Assembly (NCBI GenBank): GCA_022825895.1 | Contig: JAJDVX010000003.1 | Location: 62,001 to 126,000, forward strand | Length of the DNA: 64,000 nt | Direction: 5' to 3' | DNA from: Chloroflexota bacterium | GTDB lineage: Bacteria; Chloroflexota; UBA11872 | In this document: piece after piece, positions 13,645 to 25,435 of the stretch | How the letters are laid out: the number at the start of each line of letters is the position of its first letter | Position numbering within the stretch: the stretch's first letter is position 1 | The notes under the pieces: model-generated | Database searches by the model: none | Told to the model about the DNA's origin: nothing | Seen by the model: the letters and a program-made list of their open reading frames with translations, nothing else | Translations under genes and position numbers: made by a program

Positions 13645-14448
13645 CTATGGCTTGACGCCGGCCACCGCAACTCCGCGTACGAGATACTTCTGCGCAAAGA
13701 AGAACACGATGACGATTGGCGCCACCATGACCAGGGACGCTGTCATCAGCATCGGGAAATCGGTGCTGTATTGCGACCGGAACCACCGAATGCCTACGGC
13801 CAGCGTCAACTTATCGGGCGTCTGGATAAAAACGAACGGCCAGAAGAACTGGTTCCACTTGGCAATGACGTTGAACACGGCCACAGTGACGATGGCCGGT
13901 TTCGAGAGCGGGATCACGACTCGGAACAACACTTGCAAGAGATTCGCGCCGTCGATCTGGGCCGCTTCGTCTAGATCTACCGGTATCGTCAGGAAGAACT
14001 GCCGCAGGATGAAGATGTAGAAGGCGTTTCCCCACAGGTCCGGCAACACAATCCACCACAGGCCGTTAAGTAAGCCCGTCGGGCGGAACATGATGAACCA
14101 GGGCACGACCAGCATGTGGTACGGCAGCATCAGCGACGCCAGGACCAGCATGAAGAACAGATTCCGGCCCGGGAATAGCGTTCGCGCGAAGCCGAATGCC
14201 ACGAAGATGCTGACGAATGTCTGCCCGAACAGGCCGAACCCGACCAGGATGAGTGAGTTCGCGATCCAGTTCGCCAACGGCGCGGTTCCCCACATCTGGG
14301 AGTAGTTCTGCCAAGTCCAGGGATCGGGCCAGAGCTGTCGAGGCGCCTGGAGGTCCGCGTCGAAGTGCGCAAATGACGTGAGAAGCATCCAGATGAATGG
14401 AATGGCGTAGACGAAACTACCCAGCCAGAGAGCCAGGTACGCGATCAC
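13645..14448 (-). CDS. Sugar ABC transporter permease, MalG type (duplicate copy)
   Basis: An inner-membrane permease of a CUT1-type carbohydrate importer, 267 residues, about six transmembrane helices, with the EAA loop DEAAQIDGANLLQ that docks the ATPase. It is closely similar along its whole length to the permease at 14786-15697, so the pair is a tandem duplication. The only good start is GTG 14448, which removes the cytoplasmic tail its paralogue has; the matching tail sequence (RIQTPTRI against RIRTPARI) is still readable upstream but has no ATG, GTG or TTG. A terminator-like hairpin separates it from the first copy. Confidence 0.9.
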   Translation of the reverse strand: MIAYLALWLGSFVYAIPFIWMLLTSFAHFDADLQAPRQLWPDPWTWQNYSQMWGTAPLANWIANSLILVGFGLFGQTFVSIFVAFGFARTLFPGRNLFFMLVLASLMLPYHMLVVPWFIMFRPTGLLNGLWWIVLPDLWGNAFYIFILRQFFLTIPVDLDEAAQIDGANLLQVLFRVVIPLSKPAIVTVAVFNVIAKWNQFFWPFVFIQTPDKLTLAVGIRWFRSQYSTDFPMLMTASLVMVAPIVIVFFFAQKYLVRGVAVAGVKP

Positions 14449-14785: not shown

Positions 14786-15697
14786 CTATGACTTGATGCC
14801 GGTTAGCGCAATTCCGCGCACGAACTGCTTCTGTGCGAAGAAGAACACAATGACGATTGGCGCCACCGAGACGATGGACGCCGCCATTAACATCTGGAAT
14901 TCCGTTCCGTATTGGGTCCGGAACCACCGGATGCCCACGGCGAGGGTCAACTTCTCAGGCGTCTGGATGAAGACGAACGGTTCAAAGAACTCGTTCCACT
15001 TGTTGATGAAGTTGAACACCGCCACGGTGGCGATTGCAGGTTTGGAGAGCGGAATTACGACGCGGAACAACACCTGCAGGAGGTTCGCGCCGTCAATCTC
15101 CGCTGCCTCATCCAACTCCACCGGCAGGGTTAAGAAGAACTGCCGAAGGATGAAGATGTAGAAGGCCTGTCCCCAGAGGTCCGGCAGCGCCACCGGCCAG
15201 AGGCTGTCGAGCAGCCCGACCGTGCGGAACATGATGAACTTCGGAACGATGGTCACGTGACCCGGCAGCATCAGGGTCGCCAGGATCAGCACGAATAGCT
15301 GGTTACGGCCCGGGAACTGGGTTCGCGCGAAGCCGTAGGCCACGAAGATGCTGATGAGGGTTTGCCCGAACATGCCGAGCGCGACCAGGATGAGGGAGTT
15401 CACGATCCAGTTCGCGAACGGCCCCGTTTCCCACATGTCGATGTAGTTCTGCCAGATCCAGGGATCGGGCCAGATCTGCGGCGGCTCTTCAAAGAGCTTG
15501 TCCAGCCGCATGAACGACGTGCGAACCATCCACAGGAACGGGATGGCGTACAGGAAACTTCCCAGCCAGAGAATCAGGTACGTCGTCACACGCCCGCCCA
15601 CACGCATCGCACGGATGCGGGCCGGCGTACGGATGCGTACCGAGGTCGGCATCCCGGAGGGATCCGACGGTTCTACGGTAACGGTTTGTTGCGCCAT
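14786..15697 (-). CDS. Sugar ABC transporter permease, MalG type
   Basis: A 303-residue permease with a 35-residue cytoplasmic tail, six predicted transmembrane helices and the EAA loop DEAAEIDGANLLQ. It pairs with the MalF-type permease just upstream, eight bases away; the ribosome site AGGAGGG overlaps that gene's stop codon, so the two are translationally linked. No solute-binding protein or MalK-type ATPase gene is near, so those must be encoded elsewhere. The neighbouring polysaccharide lyase suggests that oligosaccharides are the cargo. Confidence 0.94.
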   Translation of the reverse strand: MAQQTVTVEPSDPSGMPTSVRIRTPARIRAMRVGGRVTTYLILWLGSFLYAIPFLWMVRTSFMRLDKLFEEPPQIWPDPWIWQNYIDMWETGPFANWIVNSLILVALGMFGQTLISIFVAYGFARTQFPGRNQLFVLILATLMLPGHVTIVPKFIMFRTVGLLDSLWPVALPDLWGQAFYIFILRQFFLTLPVELDEAAEIDGANLLQVLFRVVIPLSKPAIATVAVFNFINKWNEFFEPFVFIQTPEKLTLAVGIRWFRTQYGTEFQMLMAASIVSVAPIVIVFFFAQKQFVRGIALTGIKS

Positions 15698-20255: not shown

Positions 20256-21299
20256 CTACCCGTTCGGCCGTGAAGATTCTCCAAGCTCGCGCGCGTACGC
20301 AAAGATCAGCGGAGTGCCGCCGGTGTGTAGAAACACGACCGTGTCATCAGACGTTAAGCGGCCATGCCGGATGTCATCCAGAACGGCGGCGAACGCCTTG
20401 CCGGTGTACACCGGCTCCAGAAAAATGCCCTCCGTCTCGGCCAGCAGCCGGATGGCGTCTATTCCCGCAGGCGTGGCTTCGGCATAGGCGGGGCCGACGA
20501 AGGCTTGTGAATTCCAGATGTCCTCGGGTCGGACCGTTACATCGAGCCCCAGCAACTCCGCGGTGGCATTGGCCATGTCCGCCTGCTGCCGGGTTCGACC
20601 GCCGTCCACGATCAGCGGGCTGAATCCGCGAATGGCGTAGCCGGCGCCCAGCGCTCGGTTGCCGAGTTCCAGCCCGGCCTGCGTACCCCCGCCCGAGGCG
20701 ACGTAGAGGTGCGTCACATTTGCGCCCAGCGCGCGTGACTGCTCATGGATCTCAAGTACGCACTCAACGTACCCGACGGAGGTCAGCGGGCCGTAGTCGA
20801 TCACGTAGGGCTTGCGATCGGCGGCGCGCAATTCGGCCGCCGTCGCGGCCAGGTCCGCCTCGTGACCGAACATCCCGTCGCGTCCTGTGGGTCGCACGTC
20901 GGCGCCCAGGATTTCGAGCAACAGCCGGTTGCCCTGCGATTCACCGCCATGCGGCCCCTCGTTGAGCACCAGCACCACGTCCAATCCCGCGCGCCGGGCT
21001 GCCGCCGCGCACTGCCGGGCGTGATTGGACTGCATCACGCCGCCGCCCCACAGCAACACGTCGCAGCCCTGGGCCAGGGCCTCGCCAACCTCAAACTGGA
21101 ACTTGCGGTTCTTGTTGCCGCCCAACCCGTGCTGGGTCAGGTCGTCACGCTTCATCAGCAGCCGCGGTCCGCCCAGCCGACGAGTCAAATTCGGAAGTTC
21201 AAGCAGCGGCGTCGGCAGTTCGGTCAGGTGGAATCGCGGGAGCGCATCGAGGCGCTGCCGCAGGTCAGTCGCTGTGTACACGGCCGGCGCCTGCGCCAT
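20256..21299 (-). CDS. D-cysteine desulfhydrase/ACC deaminase family PLP enzyme
   Basis: A fold-type II PLP enzyme of 347 residues. Lys63 in GGNKNRK is the predicted Schiff-base lysine, followed by the QSNHARQ segment and a late GGGTQAGLELG phosphate loop. The family comprises D-cysteine desulfhydrase (releases pyruvate, ammonia and sulfide), ACC deaminase and relatives such as L-cysteate sulfo-lyase; sequence alone does not separate them. D-cysteine desulfhydrase is the conservative choice. Confidence 0.87.
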   Translation of the reverse strand: MAQAPAVYTATDLRQRLDALPRFHLTELPTPLLELPNLTRRLGGPRLLMKRDDLTQHGLGGNKNRKFQFEVGEALAQGCDVLLWGGGVMQSNHARQCAAAARRAGLDVVLVLNEGPHGGESQGNRLLLEILGADVRPTGRDGMFGHEADLAATAAELRAADRKPYVIDYGPLTSVGYVECVLEIHEQSRALGANVTHLYVASGGGTQAGLELGNRALGAGYAIRGFSPLIVDGGRTRQQADMANATAELLGLDVTVRPEDIWNSQAFVGPAYAEATPAGIDAIRLLAETEGIFLEPVYTGKAFAAVLDDIRHGRLTSDDTVVFLHTGGTPLIFAYARELGESSRPNG

Positions 21300-21471: not shown

Positions 21472-21548
21472 GGGCGCGTAGCTCAGCTGGTTAGAGCGCC
21501 ACGTTGACATCGTGGAGGTCAGAGGTTCGAGTCCCCTCGCGCCCACCA
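21472..21548 (+). tRNA. tRNA-Val (anticodon GAC)
   Basis: A 77-base gene with an encoded CCA end. The acceptor stem GGGCGCG pairs with CGCGCCC; the D arm is GCTC-loop-GAGC, the anticodon stem is CCACG/CGTGG with loop TTGACAT and anticodon GAC at 21506-21508, and the T arm contains GGTTCGAGTCC. All four stems are intact. It reads GUC and GUU valine codons. Confidence 0.97.
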
Positions 21549-21590: not shown

Positions 21591-22775
21591 TCAGTAGCGC
21601 AGAGGAGCCGGGGTCCAGCCGCGCTTCTCGCGCCAGTCAGGGCCGTAATCCGCAAAGCGATTCAGTCCCAGACCGCTGATGTCGATGTTCGTCTCCCCGA
21701 AGAGCACCAGGTCACTGACGACCTTGCCCGTGGCCGGAGAGATTCCGAAGCCATGCGCGGAAGCCGTGACCACGACGTAGTTGCTCGGGTAGTCCAGGAT
21801 GTCAATGATCGGCCGATAGTCGGGGGCCTGCTCGACCACCCCCGCCCAGCTTCGGACAACCGGCGCATCCGCCGCTCCCGGCAGCAACTCGGCGAGCCGC
21901 CTGGCGATGTTTCTAATGAGCGGAGTGTTGGGTTTACCGGGACTGGTGGTCAGGTCAACGTCGATCCATTCGTGGGCCCCGCCGCCGAAAATCAGGTTTC
22001 CCCGGACGGCCTGGTGTCCGTAGAGCCCGTTCCCCACCAGGGCGATGGGAAAACGCGGCTCCACGTGGGCGGTCGCCATGATCTCCACCCGTGCCGGCGC
22101 CACTGGAACGTGAACGCCCGCCAGTTGCGCCATCAGCCCGGTCTGTGGCCCGGCGGCGCCGACCACCACGTCGGCCGCGATGTCGCCGGCCGTCGTCTCG
22201 ACCGACGTGACCCTATCGTCGACGATCCGAAGACCGGTAACGGTCGTGTTCTGGTAGAGCCTGCCTCCCAGGTCTTGTAAGGCCCACGCGTACGCCTGGA
22301 CCGTGAGCTGGGTATTGGCGTGACCGCCATTGGGGAAGAACAACCCGCCCAGCGTCCGCTCGGTGATTCCGGGAATCAAGTCCCGAATCTCGGTGGGCTC
22401 AACTAGCTGTACGTCGATGCCGTGGCCCAATGCCACGTCCCGCTCCGCCAAGAGGTCGCCCATATCCTTCTCGGTTACCGCGACCTGGAGTCTCCCTTCC
22501 TGTACGAACTCGGTCGGATGGCCCAGCTCCTCGTCCAGCGTCGCCCACATCTCCGTGGCTTCCACGGCCATCGGGATCAGCAATGGCTCGTCAACCCGCT
22601 CGCTGACCATCCCCCCGTTTCTGCCGGAGGCCTCGCCCCCCACGATCCCCTTGTCGACGACCACCACATCCCGTCCCGCCCTGGCCAGGAAATAGGCTGA
22701 ACTCAGGCCGGATACCCCAGCCCCGATAACGACGATGTCCGCACGATCCATGGGCATGCGCTTGGTTCTTGCCAC
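21591..22775 (-). CDS. FAD-dependent amine oxidoreductase, sarcosine oxidase beta/HcnC-like
   Basis: A DAO-family flavoenzyme of 394 residues with dinucleotide-binding VIGAGVSGLSSAY near residues 16-28, the FAD-contacting EASGRNGGM segment and a carboxy GFGISPATGKVVSDL motif typical of glycine, sarcosine or D-amino-acid oxidases. It starts three bases after the stop of the larger [2Fe-2S] flavoprotein, the arrangement of two-subunit dehydrogenases such as HcnB/HcnC and opine oxidase A/B. It probably carries the substrate site for an N-methyl or secondary amine. The natural substrate is unknown. Confidence 0.87.
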   Translation of the reverse strand: MARTKRMPMDRADIVVIGAGVSGLSSAYFLARAGRDVVVVDKGIVGGEASGRNGGMVSERVDEPLLIPMAVEATEMWATLDEELGHPTEFVQEGRLQVAVTEKDMGDLLAERDVALGHGIDVQLVEPTEIRDLIPGITERTLGGLFFPNGGHANTQLTVQAYAWALQDLGGRLYQNTTVTGLRIVDDRVTSVETTAGDIAADVVVGAAGPQTGLMAQLAGVHVPVAPARVEIMATAHVEPRFPIALVGNGLYGHQAVRGNLIFGGGAHEWIDVDLTTSPGKPNTPLIRNIARRLAELLPGAADAPVVRSWAGVVEQAPDYRPIIDILDYPSNYVVVTASAHGFGISPATGKVVSDLVLFGETNIDISGLGLNRFADYGPDWREKRGWTPAPLRY

Positions 22776-22778
22776 CCC

Positions 22779-24311
22779 TTATTCCAGTACCGGGCTTGTT
22801 GGGCTGAACCACTTGGCCCATTCCCTGCGCACCTGCTCCGATTCATCGTGCGACCACAGCACCCGCAGTGGTAGCGGCCGCACGGGTGGCCGGTAGGACA
22901 TCAAGGGCATGTCGGCGATGTCGCTGCCCGACGCCTCGGCAAGCAGCAGCGCCACTTGCTCGCGGCAAAGCCGTCCCTGGCAGTGGCCCATGCCTGCCCG
23001 TGTCAGGCGCTTAACCTGGTCCGGGTTGACCCGAGCATCCGGCGCAAGCGTTCCGAGGCTGCGGCCGTCCCGTCGCTCCGATTCCCATTTCAGAAACCGC
23101 GGCGGCCGTAGGCCGATGAGGTCCTCACGGGTGACCTCCTCGCATGGGCACACGGGGACGTCTGATCCGCCTGCGTTGCGCAGGGCCCGGAGCCACCGCG
23201 TCCAGTTCGCGTAGGCGTCGGTCGGTTTCGAGTTGATCGCCGTCCCCGTAAGTTCACGTCTCCGGGCAGTCGCTTCCGCTGTGTCGAATGCGCCGAGCGA
23301 CTCGGCTGCGGCAACCCCGGCCAAGCGGCCCTGGCTTCGTGCAATCTCGGTGTTGAGAACCATTCCGTCATGGAACCCAGCGGCATCTCCGGCGACGTGC
23401 ACGTCTCTGACGCTGGTTCGCATGCAGTCGTCGTGGACTGGCACGTATCCCCCGAGCTCAGGCTTAAAGCCGACGTCGCACCCCAGGAGACTTAGCAGCT
23501 CAACGTTGGGCACCAGGCCGATCGCGAGGCAGACCGTGTCGGCGGAGATTTCCTTCTCCGTGCCGGCAACCGGCTCGCTGTTGTCGTCGATCTCAACCAG
23601 TCTGACGGACTCGATCTCGCCGTCTCGGCCGACCGCCTCCCGGACGGTGTGGGAGGTGTAGAGCCTGACGCCCATGTCCTGCAGCGCCGCGCTCAGGGCC
23701 CTGTCGCCGCGTACGGAATCGGATACGTCCACGATGGCGGCGACCTCGATTCCGCGGTCCAGCGCCATCCGGGCGGTGTTGAGACCCAGGTTGCCGGTGC
23801 CCAACACCACCATGCGTCGTGAGGCCAACGCCTGGTAGTGGCGCATCAGTGCATGCGCCCCGTTGGCCCCCATGGCCCCGGCCAGATTCCACCCGGCGAA
23901 GGCGAGCCCAAGGTCGCGGGCGCCGGCCGCCACAATCAGCCGGTCGTACATGATTAACCACGACCGATCCCGGTTGGCCAGGCCAAGCTGCGGTCCGTCC
24001 AGAACTCTGCTGGTGTCGCTATTGCGGAAGGCGCCCCAGACACACGTCCCAAGCTGAACGTCCACACCGGCCTCTTCGGCCTCGGCCAGGCCTTCGTTCG
24101 CATGGACCACCCGTTCCAGCATCAGGGCCCTGTCGTGCAGCACCGCATTGAATCGCTGGCCGAAGAACTGCGGAGCATTCAGCGCGGCCATGGACTCTGG
24201 AATGGGATTCTCGTCGAAAAGCGTGACCTGCACGCCGGCCCTGGCCGCCTCTATGGCGGCGGCCGTCCCCGCTATCCCGGCCCCCACTACAACCAGCGAT
24301 CTGGATTCCAT
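22779..24311 (-). CDS. FAD/NAD(P) oxidoreductase with [2Fe-2S] BFD domain, HcnB/opine oxidase A-like
   Basis: A 510-residue flavoprotein with VVVGAGIAGTAAA at 7-19, a second nucleotide-binding segment (VVLGTGNLGLNTA) and a late GDAAGFHDG FAD motif. The carboxy domain carries Cys388, Cys390, Cys444 and Cys449 in CPCEE and GHCQGRLC, a BFD-type [2Fe-2S] site. This is the electron-transfer subunit of amine dehydrogenases related to hydrogen cyanide synthase B and octopine/nopaline oxidase A. No separate ferredoxin-like HcnA gene is present. It follows the methyltransferase gene by 32 bases. Confidence 0.87.
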   Translation of the reverse strand: MESRSLVVVGAGIAGTAAAIEAARAGVQVTLFDENPIPESMAALNAPQFFGQRFNAVLHDRALMLERVVHANEGLAEAEEAGVDVQLGTCVWGAFRNSDTSRVLDGPQLGLANRDRSWLIMYDRLIVAAGARDLGLAFAGWNLAGAMGANGAHALMRHYQALASRRMVVLGTGNLGLNTARMALDRGIEVAAIVDVSDSVRGDRALSAALQDMGVRLYTSHTVREAVGRDGEIESVRLVEIDDNSEPVAGTEKEISADTVCLAIGLVPNVELLSLLGCDVGFKPELGGYVPVHDDCMRTSVRDVHVAGDAAGFHDGMVLNTEIARSQGRLAGVAAAESLGAFDTAEATARRRELTGTAINSKPTDAYANWTRWLRALRNAGGSDVPVCPCEEVTREDLIGLRPPRFLKWESERRDGRSLGTLAPDARVNPDQVKRLTRAGMGHCQGRLCREQVALLLAEASGSDIADMPLMSYRPPVRPLPLRVLWSHDESEQVRREWAKWFSPTSPVLE

Positions 24312-24343
24312 GCCGGGTCCACCCGCCTAGGCCGAAGCCACTT

Positions 24344-25435
24344 CTACGTCCGGTCTCCGTGACTGTGCGCGTGCCCGGCCGCCTTTGGCGGCGACGCGGT
24401 TCCGGCCGGCAAAGCATCCCGCAGGGACCTCGTGTAATCGACACCGAATCCGCAGCATGTGCCCACGACCTGGACGCCCATTTCGACCCAGGTCTCGGCC
24501 TCGCGCGTCAACTCCTCCGCGGACTCTTCGTTGCTCACGCTGCGGTCCTGCCAGGTCGCGAGATAGTCTTCCCTGCCGGCATCCGGATAGACGATGACCG
24601 GCCCGGACCATTCGTCAAGCACGACTTCGAGCGCCCGCGTCGACTCCGCGATCCGGCTGTGGAAAACGCCAAGGACGTCGGGCTCCAGCGACGCAATCTC
24701 ATTGACGCCGTCGGCCAGGCTCTTCGTGTCATCGACCGGCCGCCAACTCTCCGTCCACAGGGGCATGCCGATGCCGGTGCTGTAGTCACGGTCGCCGCCG
24801 AAACTCATTCGCACCGCCTGCCCGTCCTCCGCGACAGAAGCGGTAAAGGCCACCCAGACCGGCAGCCCCGTGGCCTTCGCTGATTCCGCGGCGATCGCCC
24901 GGGACTCGTTGTCGGCCCACAGGTTCTCGATCAGGAACAGATCCACCCCGGACTCGGCCAGGATATTGGCCTGCTCCTCGGCGTAGGCCCGCAGCTCTGC
25001 CGTCGAAAGGCTGGCGCCATAGCCGTAGCCCGTTCCGCCCAGCAGTGTCCCGGTCCTGCGGTCGCGGATGGGGATTCGACACGAGATGGAACCGGCGATA
25101 CAGATTGGCCGGTCGACAGCGGTCCGGGCAATGGCGTCGTGCGCGGCGTCCACGGCGCGCACGTTGACTTCTCGCACCAGTTCGCTGTACCCGGAAGCCT
25201 CCAGGGCGGGGCGCAGGGTGTTGAAGGTGTTGGTGGTAATGACGTCCGCTCCGGCTTTGATGTACCGCTCGTGCATCTGCCGCACCGTTGAAGGGTGCGT
25301 GTAGTTGCCGGGACCGCACCACGCGGCCGGGTCCATCGGCACGCCCATGGACTGAAGCTCGGTTCCGATGGCTCCATCGAGGATGATCACCTCGCCCTGA
25401 TCCAGGCGGCTCTTCAGCGCCCCATAGTTAGCCAT
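24344..25435 (-). CDS. Homocysteine S-methyltransferase family protein
   Basis: A 363-residue TIM barrel of the betaine/S-methylmethionine-homocysteine methyltransferase family, with the usual ILDGAIGTELQ start and a TNTFNT segment. Family members bind zinc with three Cys; here the carboxy pair is present (Cys327 and Cys328 in GTCCGFG) but the position of the first Cys appears to be His259 in GVFHSRI. The end carries a His-rich HAHSHGD. ATG 25435 has a GGAGAA ribosome site. It leads an operon with a two-subunit amine dehydrogenase, so the methyl donor may be a methylated amine such as a betaine. Confidence 0.85.
   Translation of the reverse strand: MANYGALKSRLDQGEVIILDGAIGTELQSMGVPMDPAAWCGPGNYTHPSTVRQMHERYIKAGADVITTNTFNTLRPALEASGYSELVREVNVRAVDAAHDAIARTAVDRPICIAGSISCRIPIRDRRTGTLLGGTGYGYGASLSTAELRAYAEEQANILAESGVDLFLIENLWADNESRAIAAESAKATGLPVWVAFTASVAEDGQAVRMSFGGDRDYSTGIGMPLWTESWRPVDDTKSLADGVNEIASLEPDVLGVFHSRIAESTRALEVVLDEWSGPVIVYPDAGREDYLATWQDRSVSNEESAEELTREAETWVEMGVQVVGTCCGFGVDYTRSLRDALPAGTASPPKAAGHAHSHGDRT

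Follow-up and report, generated by a model that had tools for sequence, protein, structure and literature searches.

The window analysed here, a 64,000-nucleotide stretch of contig JAJDVX010000003.1 from a 3.54-Mb metagenome-type assembly, comes from a bacterium of the Chloroflexota, a phylum whose sponge symbionts are the subject of PMC6306507. At positions 21591-25435 its minus strand carries three genes in the order MT, OOXA and SOXB, encoding an S-methyltransferase of family PF02574 and the two subunits of a flavin-dependent amine dehydrogenase (Table 1). We consider this trio a candidate module for the demethylation and oxidation of a betaine-type compound. The original prediction of a three-gene operon with gaps of 32 and 3 bases, which gave no strand, was confirmed in all its open reading frames and both gap sizes, and profile searches bore out its family calls: MT matches PF02574 (156.1 bits, cut-off 22; 2.3e-45), OOXA combines Pyr_redox_2 with a C-terminal SO_alpha_A3/BFD-like [2Fe-2S] region, and SOXB matches DAO (5.4e-70). 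The trio is under purifying selection and co-inherited. Its dN/dS values against four relatives are 0.07-0.30, and the protein distance matrices of MT, OOXA and SOXB agree (r 0.68-0.78 over 17 loci, with 0 of 2000 permutations as high); the coding signal is therefore not due to chance.

Table 1. Positions of the operon genes, their diagnostic residues and the adjoining tRNA gene in the window
Feature	Position	Strand	Remarks
MT: PF02574 S-methyltransferase, H-C-C metal-site clade, operon gene 1	24344..25435	-	363 amino acids; profile match, predicted fold
OOXA: alpha subunit, FAD/pyridine-nucleotide fold and C-terminal [2Fe-2S] domain	22779..24311	-	510 amino acids
SOXB: catalytic DAO-type beta subunit	21591..22775	-	394 amino acids
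MT His259 codon, position of the family's first zinc-ligand Cys	24659..24661	-	aligned to MmuM Cys229
MT Cys327-Cys328 codons (GTCCG), retained zinc ligands	24452..24457	-	
OOXA Cys388-x-Cys390 ... Cys444-x4-Cys449 cluster	22965..23150	-	invariant in 16 trio homologues
SOXB Arg308-Ser-Trp310, Arg-X-Trp FMN motif	21846..21854	-	R308 and W310 invariant
tRNA-Val(gac), convergent, at the downstream end of the operon	21472..21548	+	

Scanning 84,980 species genomes yielded 79 loci. Every close locus with enough sequence (MT 71-97%) showed the order MT-OOXA-SOXB. Separation of the methyltransferase gene from the dehydrogenase genes in relatives had been named beforehand as a possible refutation of the original prediction; the two instead stay together in Chloroflexota belonging to several genera and families. 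The close relatives are marine, uncultured metagenome-assembled genomes of Chloroflexi/Dehalococcoidia, partly from sponge and coral. Among 301 Chloroflexota genomes, close MTs are confined to a few related families, and the 14 of 151 sampled Chloroflexota genomes with a close OOXA all have a close MT as well (14/14); one genome of the same genus (G023) has neither. Beyond this Chloroflexota group, MT identity does not exceed 44% and the scan found no trio. One genome, COS2_bin_4 (G157), holds two differing copies of the trio on separate contigs (L009 and L026; MT 84% and 80% to the window), for which recent transfer, duplication or a mixed bin would each account.

The metal site of the methyltransferase

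The predicted structure of MT (METHYLTRANSFERASE; mean predicted local distance difference test (pLDDT) score 80.6) matches the homocysteine domains of MetH, which are its best structural matches, as well as MmuM and BHMT. The Asp-Gly pair and the Glu of the homocysteine site are present as D20, G21 and E170, the last aligned with the MmuM Glu. The three-Cys zinc site is altered: the first zinc-ligand Cys of methionine synthase, MmuM and BHMT is replaced by His259, a change missed in the original prediction, and C327 and C328 are kept. D20, G21, E170, H259, C327 and C328 are invariant among 32 aligned MT homologues. On the family tree the His-Cys-Cys (H-C-C) type forms one clade comprising 27 rows of the 79 family members (support 100/99) that arose by a single change, and its members come from Chloroflexota, Alpha- and Gammaproteobacteria, Desulfobulbus and Hydrogenedentota. 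Other methyltransferases, such as MtaA and MtbA, have thiol-activating zinc sites of the H-C-C type, so that thiol chemistry at a putative zinc remains plausible for MT.

Trp44 and Tyr77 are the betaine-binding aromatics of BHMT. MT shares with BHMT/Bmt of human, SAR11 and S. meliloti (PMC12478193) its fold, D20/G21, the CC zinc pair and Trp39, aligned to Trp44. Unlike BHMT, it has His259 for the first zinc Cys and Asn72 for Tyr77, and it scores 89.5 against the equivalog cut-off of 338.

Because stand-alone PF02574 proteins can be homocysteine-binding modules of split cobalamin-dependent methionine synthases (PMC12478193), MT might be such an MtgE-like module, adjacent to the dehydrogenase only through shared one-carbon metabolism. 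The structural matches to MetH and an MtgC-like corrinoid protein encoded in the genome fit this explanation. However, a second PF02574 protein of the standard C-C-C type (L001) and two MetE-like proteins are available for methionine synthesis, no corrinoid partner gene lies near the trio (the sole PF02607 match is on another contig), and the genome contains no MTTB protein. The trio MT, moreover, carries H for C and is tightly co-inherited with the dehydrogenase. The explanation is less likely for these reasons; we rate it the least probable of the alternatives considered here.

The neighbours of distant H-C-C methyltransferases were also annotated in search of a substrate common to them. These genes are catabolic but of many kinds, with iron-containing alcohol dehydrogenase, amidase, enolase-like, class-III aminotransferase, FAA hydrolase and ATP-binding cassette (ABC) transporter genes, and did not converge. 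Some Alphaproteobacteria (G312, G403, G577; L155, L156, L159, L168, L169, L170, L173) encode several MT homologues per genome, up to six in G312; many of those in G312, G403 and G577 have the His-type motif, and their catabolic neighbourhoods vary. At 595-2882 of L185, from another genome, the gene of an H-C-C methyltransferase adjoins, in divergent orientation, that of a stand-alone DAO enzyme; the two chemistries may be paired here a second time. In Neomarinimicrobiota (L050, L053-L056, L059, L061), PF02574 genes occur as tandem pairs in which the upstream copy has lost all three metal Cys residues (A/S-S-S) and the downstream copy has them; related tandem pairs are present in L048, L049, L052 and L109. 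Copies without the Cys residues group in one clade (100/100), and the arrangement suggests a heterodimer with a metal-free partner.

The dehydrogenase pair and its alphaproteobacterial sisters

Both OOXA and SOXB carry flavin adenine dinucleotide (FAD) motifs, that of OOXA lying at its very start. The OOXA cluster follows the pattern CxC...Cx4C, its two halves separated by 53 residues. An alpha-subunit CxC...Cx4C cluster and a beta-subunit Arg-X-Trp flavin mononucleotide (FMN) motif are features of opine, D-hydroxyproline and L-proline dehydrogenases (PMC4575208), and the trio shares them, along with both FAD motifs, with the Odh/Oox/Nox, Hcn and PH1363/PH1364 enzymes (PMC4575208). It differs from these in the longer spacing of its alpha Cys cluster, in forming a separate phylogenetic clade and in having no gamma subunit; neither a gamma [2Fe-2S] subunit (C-x4-C-x2-C-x11-12-C) nor an equivalent N-terminal domain was found in or beside the operon. 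OOXA is homologous to parts of SoxA, and SOXB to SoxB, of heterotetrameric sarcosine oxidase (SoxBDAG). Unlike that enzyme, the trio has no delta or gamma gene, profile searches found no folate domain (PF01571, GCV_T) in the pair, and the scores against the sarcosine oxidase models TIGR01372 and TIGR01373 (127 vs 1164 and 151 vs 529) are far below the cut-offs. The predicted structure of SOXB had a pLDDT of 38.9 and was not used.

The characterised relatives of the pair, namely opine, D-hydroxyproline and L-proline dehydrogenases and hydrogen cyanide synthase, oxidise C-N bonds of a backbone or ring, and the best solved-structure match of the beta subunit is PH1364 (1y56_B). The dehydrogenase might therefore act first, in an opine-, proline- or hydroxyproline-like oxidation, with MT working on what it produces or on some unrelated by-product, and the lack of a folate domain to capture formaldehyde agrees with this. 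The position of MT as gene 1 throughout, and of the demethylase before the pair in most of the Rieske clusters described below, points the other way, although gene order is weak evidence. We regard this order of events as improbable, placing it second among the alternatives.

The nearest dehydrogenase pairs outside Chloroflexota are alphaproteobacterial (SOXB 40-50%, OOXA 30-51%). In the SOXB tree the Chloroflexota clade (100/99) is sister (96/87) to the alphaproteobacterial clade (100/100), and the two stand apart from other DAO enzymes (100/97). A GbcA-like Rieske oxygenase adjoins the pair in 6/9 resolvable non-redundant alphaproteobacterial clusters (440-541 bits, E to 1e-162). Clusters of Paracoccus denitrificans and relatives, P. 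yeei and Ancylobacter combine the GbcA-like Rieske protein (528-541 bits in two tested) with a GbcB-like reductase, a GbdR-like regulator and an OsmF-like betaine ABC transporter; a betaine-type ABC transporter and a GbdR-like regulator are present in three of the six Rieske clusters. In the cultured strain P. denitrificans PD1222 the homologous pair is WP_011751114/WP_011751113 and the GbcA-like protein WP_011751116. In Novosphingobium and two further genomes, the pair is accompanied by a GbcA-like Rieske gene and a gene of the cystathionine gamma-synthase family. A search of 369 Gammaproteobacteria, run without a positive control, did not find the pair. On Paracoccus plasmids (L199, L218-L220), a betaine-type cluster comprises a GbcA-like Rieske gene, the alpha-beta dehydrogenase and a nitrilase-type hydrolase, in most cases with an acyl-CoA ligase and an acyl-CoA dehydrogenase as well; these clusters perhaps serve a betaine other than glycine betaine.

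The original prediction had invoked betaine-like methyl donors. This link gains independent support because GbcA/GbcB-like demethylases and betaine transporters are frequent neighbours of the sister pairs. MmuM, a close structural relative of MT, uses S-methylmethionine as its methyl donor, and MT might likewise demethylate a sulfonium or S-methyl compound (S-methylmethionine or one resembling dimethylsulfoniopropionate), leaving the derived amino or imino acid to the dehydrogenase. A DmdA-like protein in the genome, through which methylated sulfur compounds may be used, and the cystathionine gamma-synthase-family gene of three sister clusters favour this view, against which stand the GbcA-, GbdR- and OsmF-like genes of the sister pairs, typical of N-betaines. 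It is the strongest of the alternatives, though in our judgement unlikely.

A proposed demethylation-oxidation module

Based on these comparisons, we propose, at a probability of about one half, that the trio is a self-contained module for demethylating and then oxidising a betaine-type small molecule, N-methylated and probably quaternary. First, zinc in the H-C-C site would activate a thiol, most likely homocysteine, and this thiol would accept one of the betaine's methyl groups in a step that needs no O2. The amine left after dealkylation would then be oxidised at the FAD of the beta subunit SOXB, yielding formaldehyde or an oxo-acid, and electrons would pass from an interface FMN through the [2Fe-2S]/FAD centres of the alpha subunit to a quinone or other carrier. 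MT would stand in for the O2-dependent Rieske monooxygenase that Alphaproteobacteria use ahead of the same dehydrogenase. In this scheme we infer the type of betaine, the methyl acceptor, the order of the steps and the site of dehydrogenation.

Another of the closest known systems is the GbcAB glycine betaine monooxygenase pathway, in which a Rieske demethylase is followed by dimethylglycine and sarcosine oxidation. As there, the trio pairs a demethylation gene with a flavin amine dehydrogenase, itself sister to pairs beside GbcA/GbcB-like genes; unlike there, a PF02574 methyltransferase takes the place of the Rieske gene and no conserved transporter or regulator lies nearby. No GbcA homologue was detectable in the window's genome, and none scored over the cut-off in 21 relatives. 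The genome has a separate SoxA above cut-off together with DMGDH-like, DmdA-like, MtgC-like corrinoid and two MetE-like genes, and the roles of sarcosine oxidase, DMGDH and MetE therefore do not depend on the trio.

Several observations weigh against the proposed module. With one metal Cys lost, the thiol chemistry of MT could be altered or absent. No H-C-C enzyme whose activity has been assayed was found, and the betaine-binding Tyr77 of BHMT is the residue replaced by Asn72. The GbcA-like proteins fall short of the curated cut-off of 670. The trio itself has no conserved substrate, transporter or regulator beside it. Moreover, 3/9 resolvable alphaproteobacterial pairs have no Rieske neighbour and lie with gamma-glutamyltranspeptidase or family-5 binding-protein ABC genes instead, and Rhizobium pairs, which fall outside the two sister clades, also lack one and sit with ETF and GabT/SSADH. 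These contexts indicate that the dehydrogenase pair is not confined to betaines, and it is because the family is wider than betaines that our confidence stays near one half.

Each of the three proteins belongs to a known superfamily, and what is new is their combination; no description of the trio, of the H-C-C clade or of an exchange of a Rieske enzyme for a methyltransferase was found in the open-access literature. More tentatively, the H-C-C PF02574 clade may consist of separate O2-independent demethylases that move methyl groups from N-betaines or other methylated catabolites directly onto a thiol, one of which would have replaced the Rieske betaine monooxygenase ahead of a dedicated two-subunit dehydrogenase in these Chloroflexota, giving an undescribed route of betaine degradation. 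In the sea, betaines are major currencies of nitrogen and carbon, and the proposal, which offers a concrete and testable route for their degradation, bears on their use by uncultured marine Chloroflexota. It links to demethylation an unassigned methyltransferase clade, with His in the zinc site, that recurs in marine Alpha- and Gammaproteobacteria and SAR202, and suggests a natural swap of an O2-dependent demethylase for a thiol-dependent one before the same dehydrogenase.

Flanking genes and tRNA

A pyridoxal phosphate (PLP)-dependent gene resembling CuyA and D-cysteine desulfhydrase lies downstream of the trio at 20256-21299, beyond tRNA-Val. It was rejected as an operon member since the convergent tRNA gene ends the operon and the PLP gene adjoins the trio only within the genus. 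The SNase, PLP and glycosyltransferase neighbours are common to the genus only, and the flanks differ beyond it; from the wider trio neighbours in other Chloroflexota (S-adenosylmethionine-dependent methyltransferases, restriction genes, an arabinofuranosidase, UbiA) no pathway could be drawn. No signal of a riboswitch, promoter or terminator was detected.

The trio often adjoins tRNA genes (Val, His or Arg) or lies close to them, as in L003-L010, L020, L022-L025 and the window. In L004, an insertion of about 4.4 kb separates the trio from tRNA-Val, which hints at an integration hot spot. Elsewhere in the window, two similar ABC sugar permease genes lie in tandem (13645-14448 and 14786-15697) beside a heparinase-like gene, apparently through local duplication.

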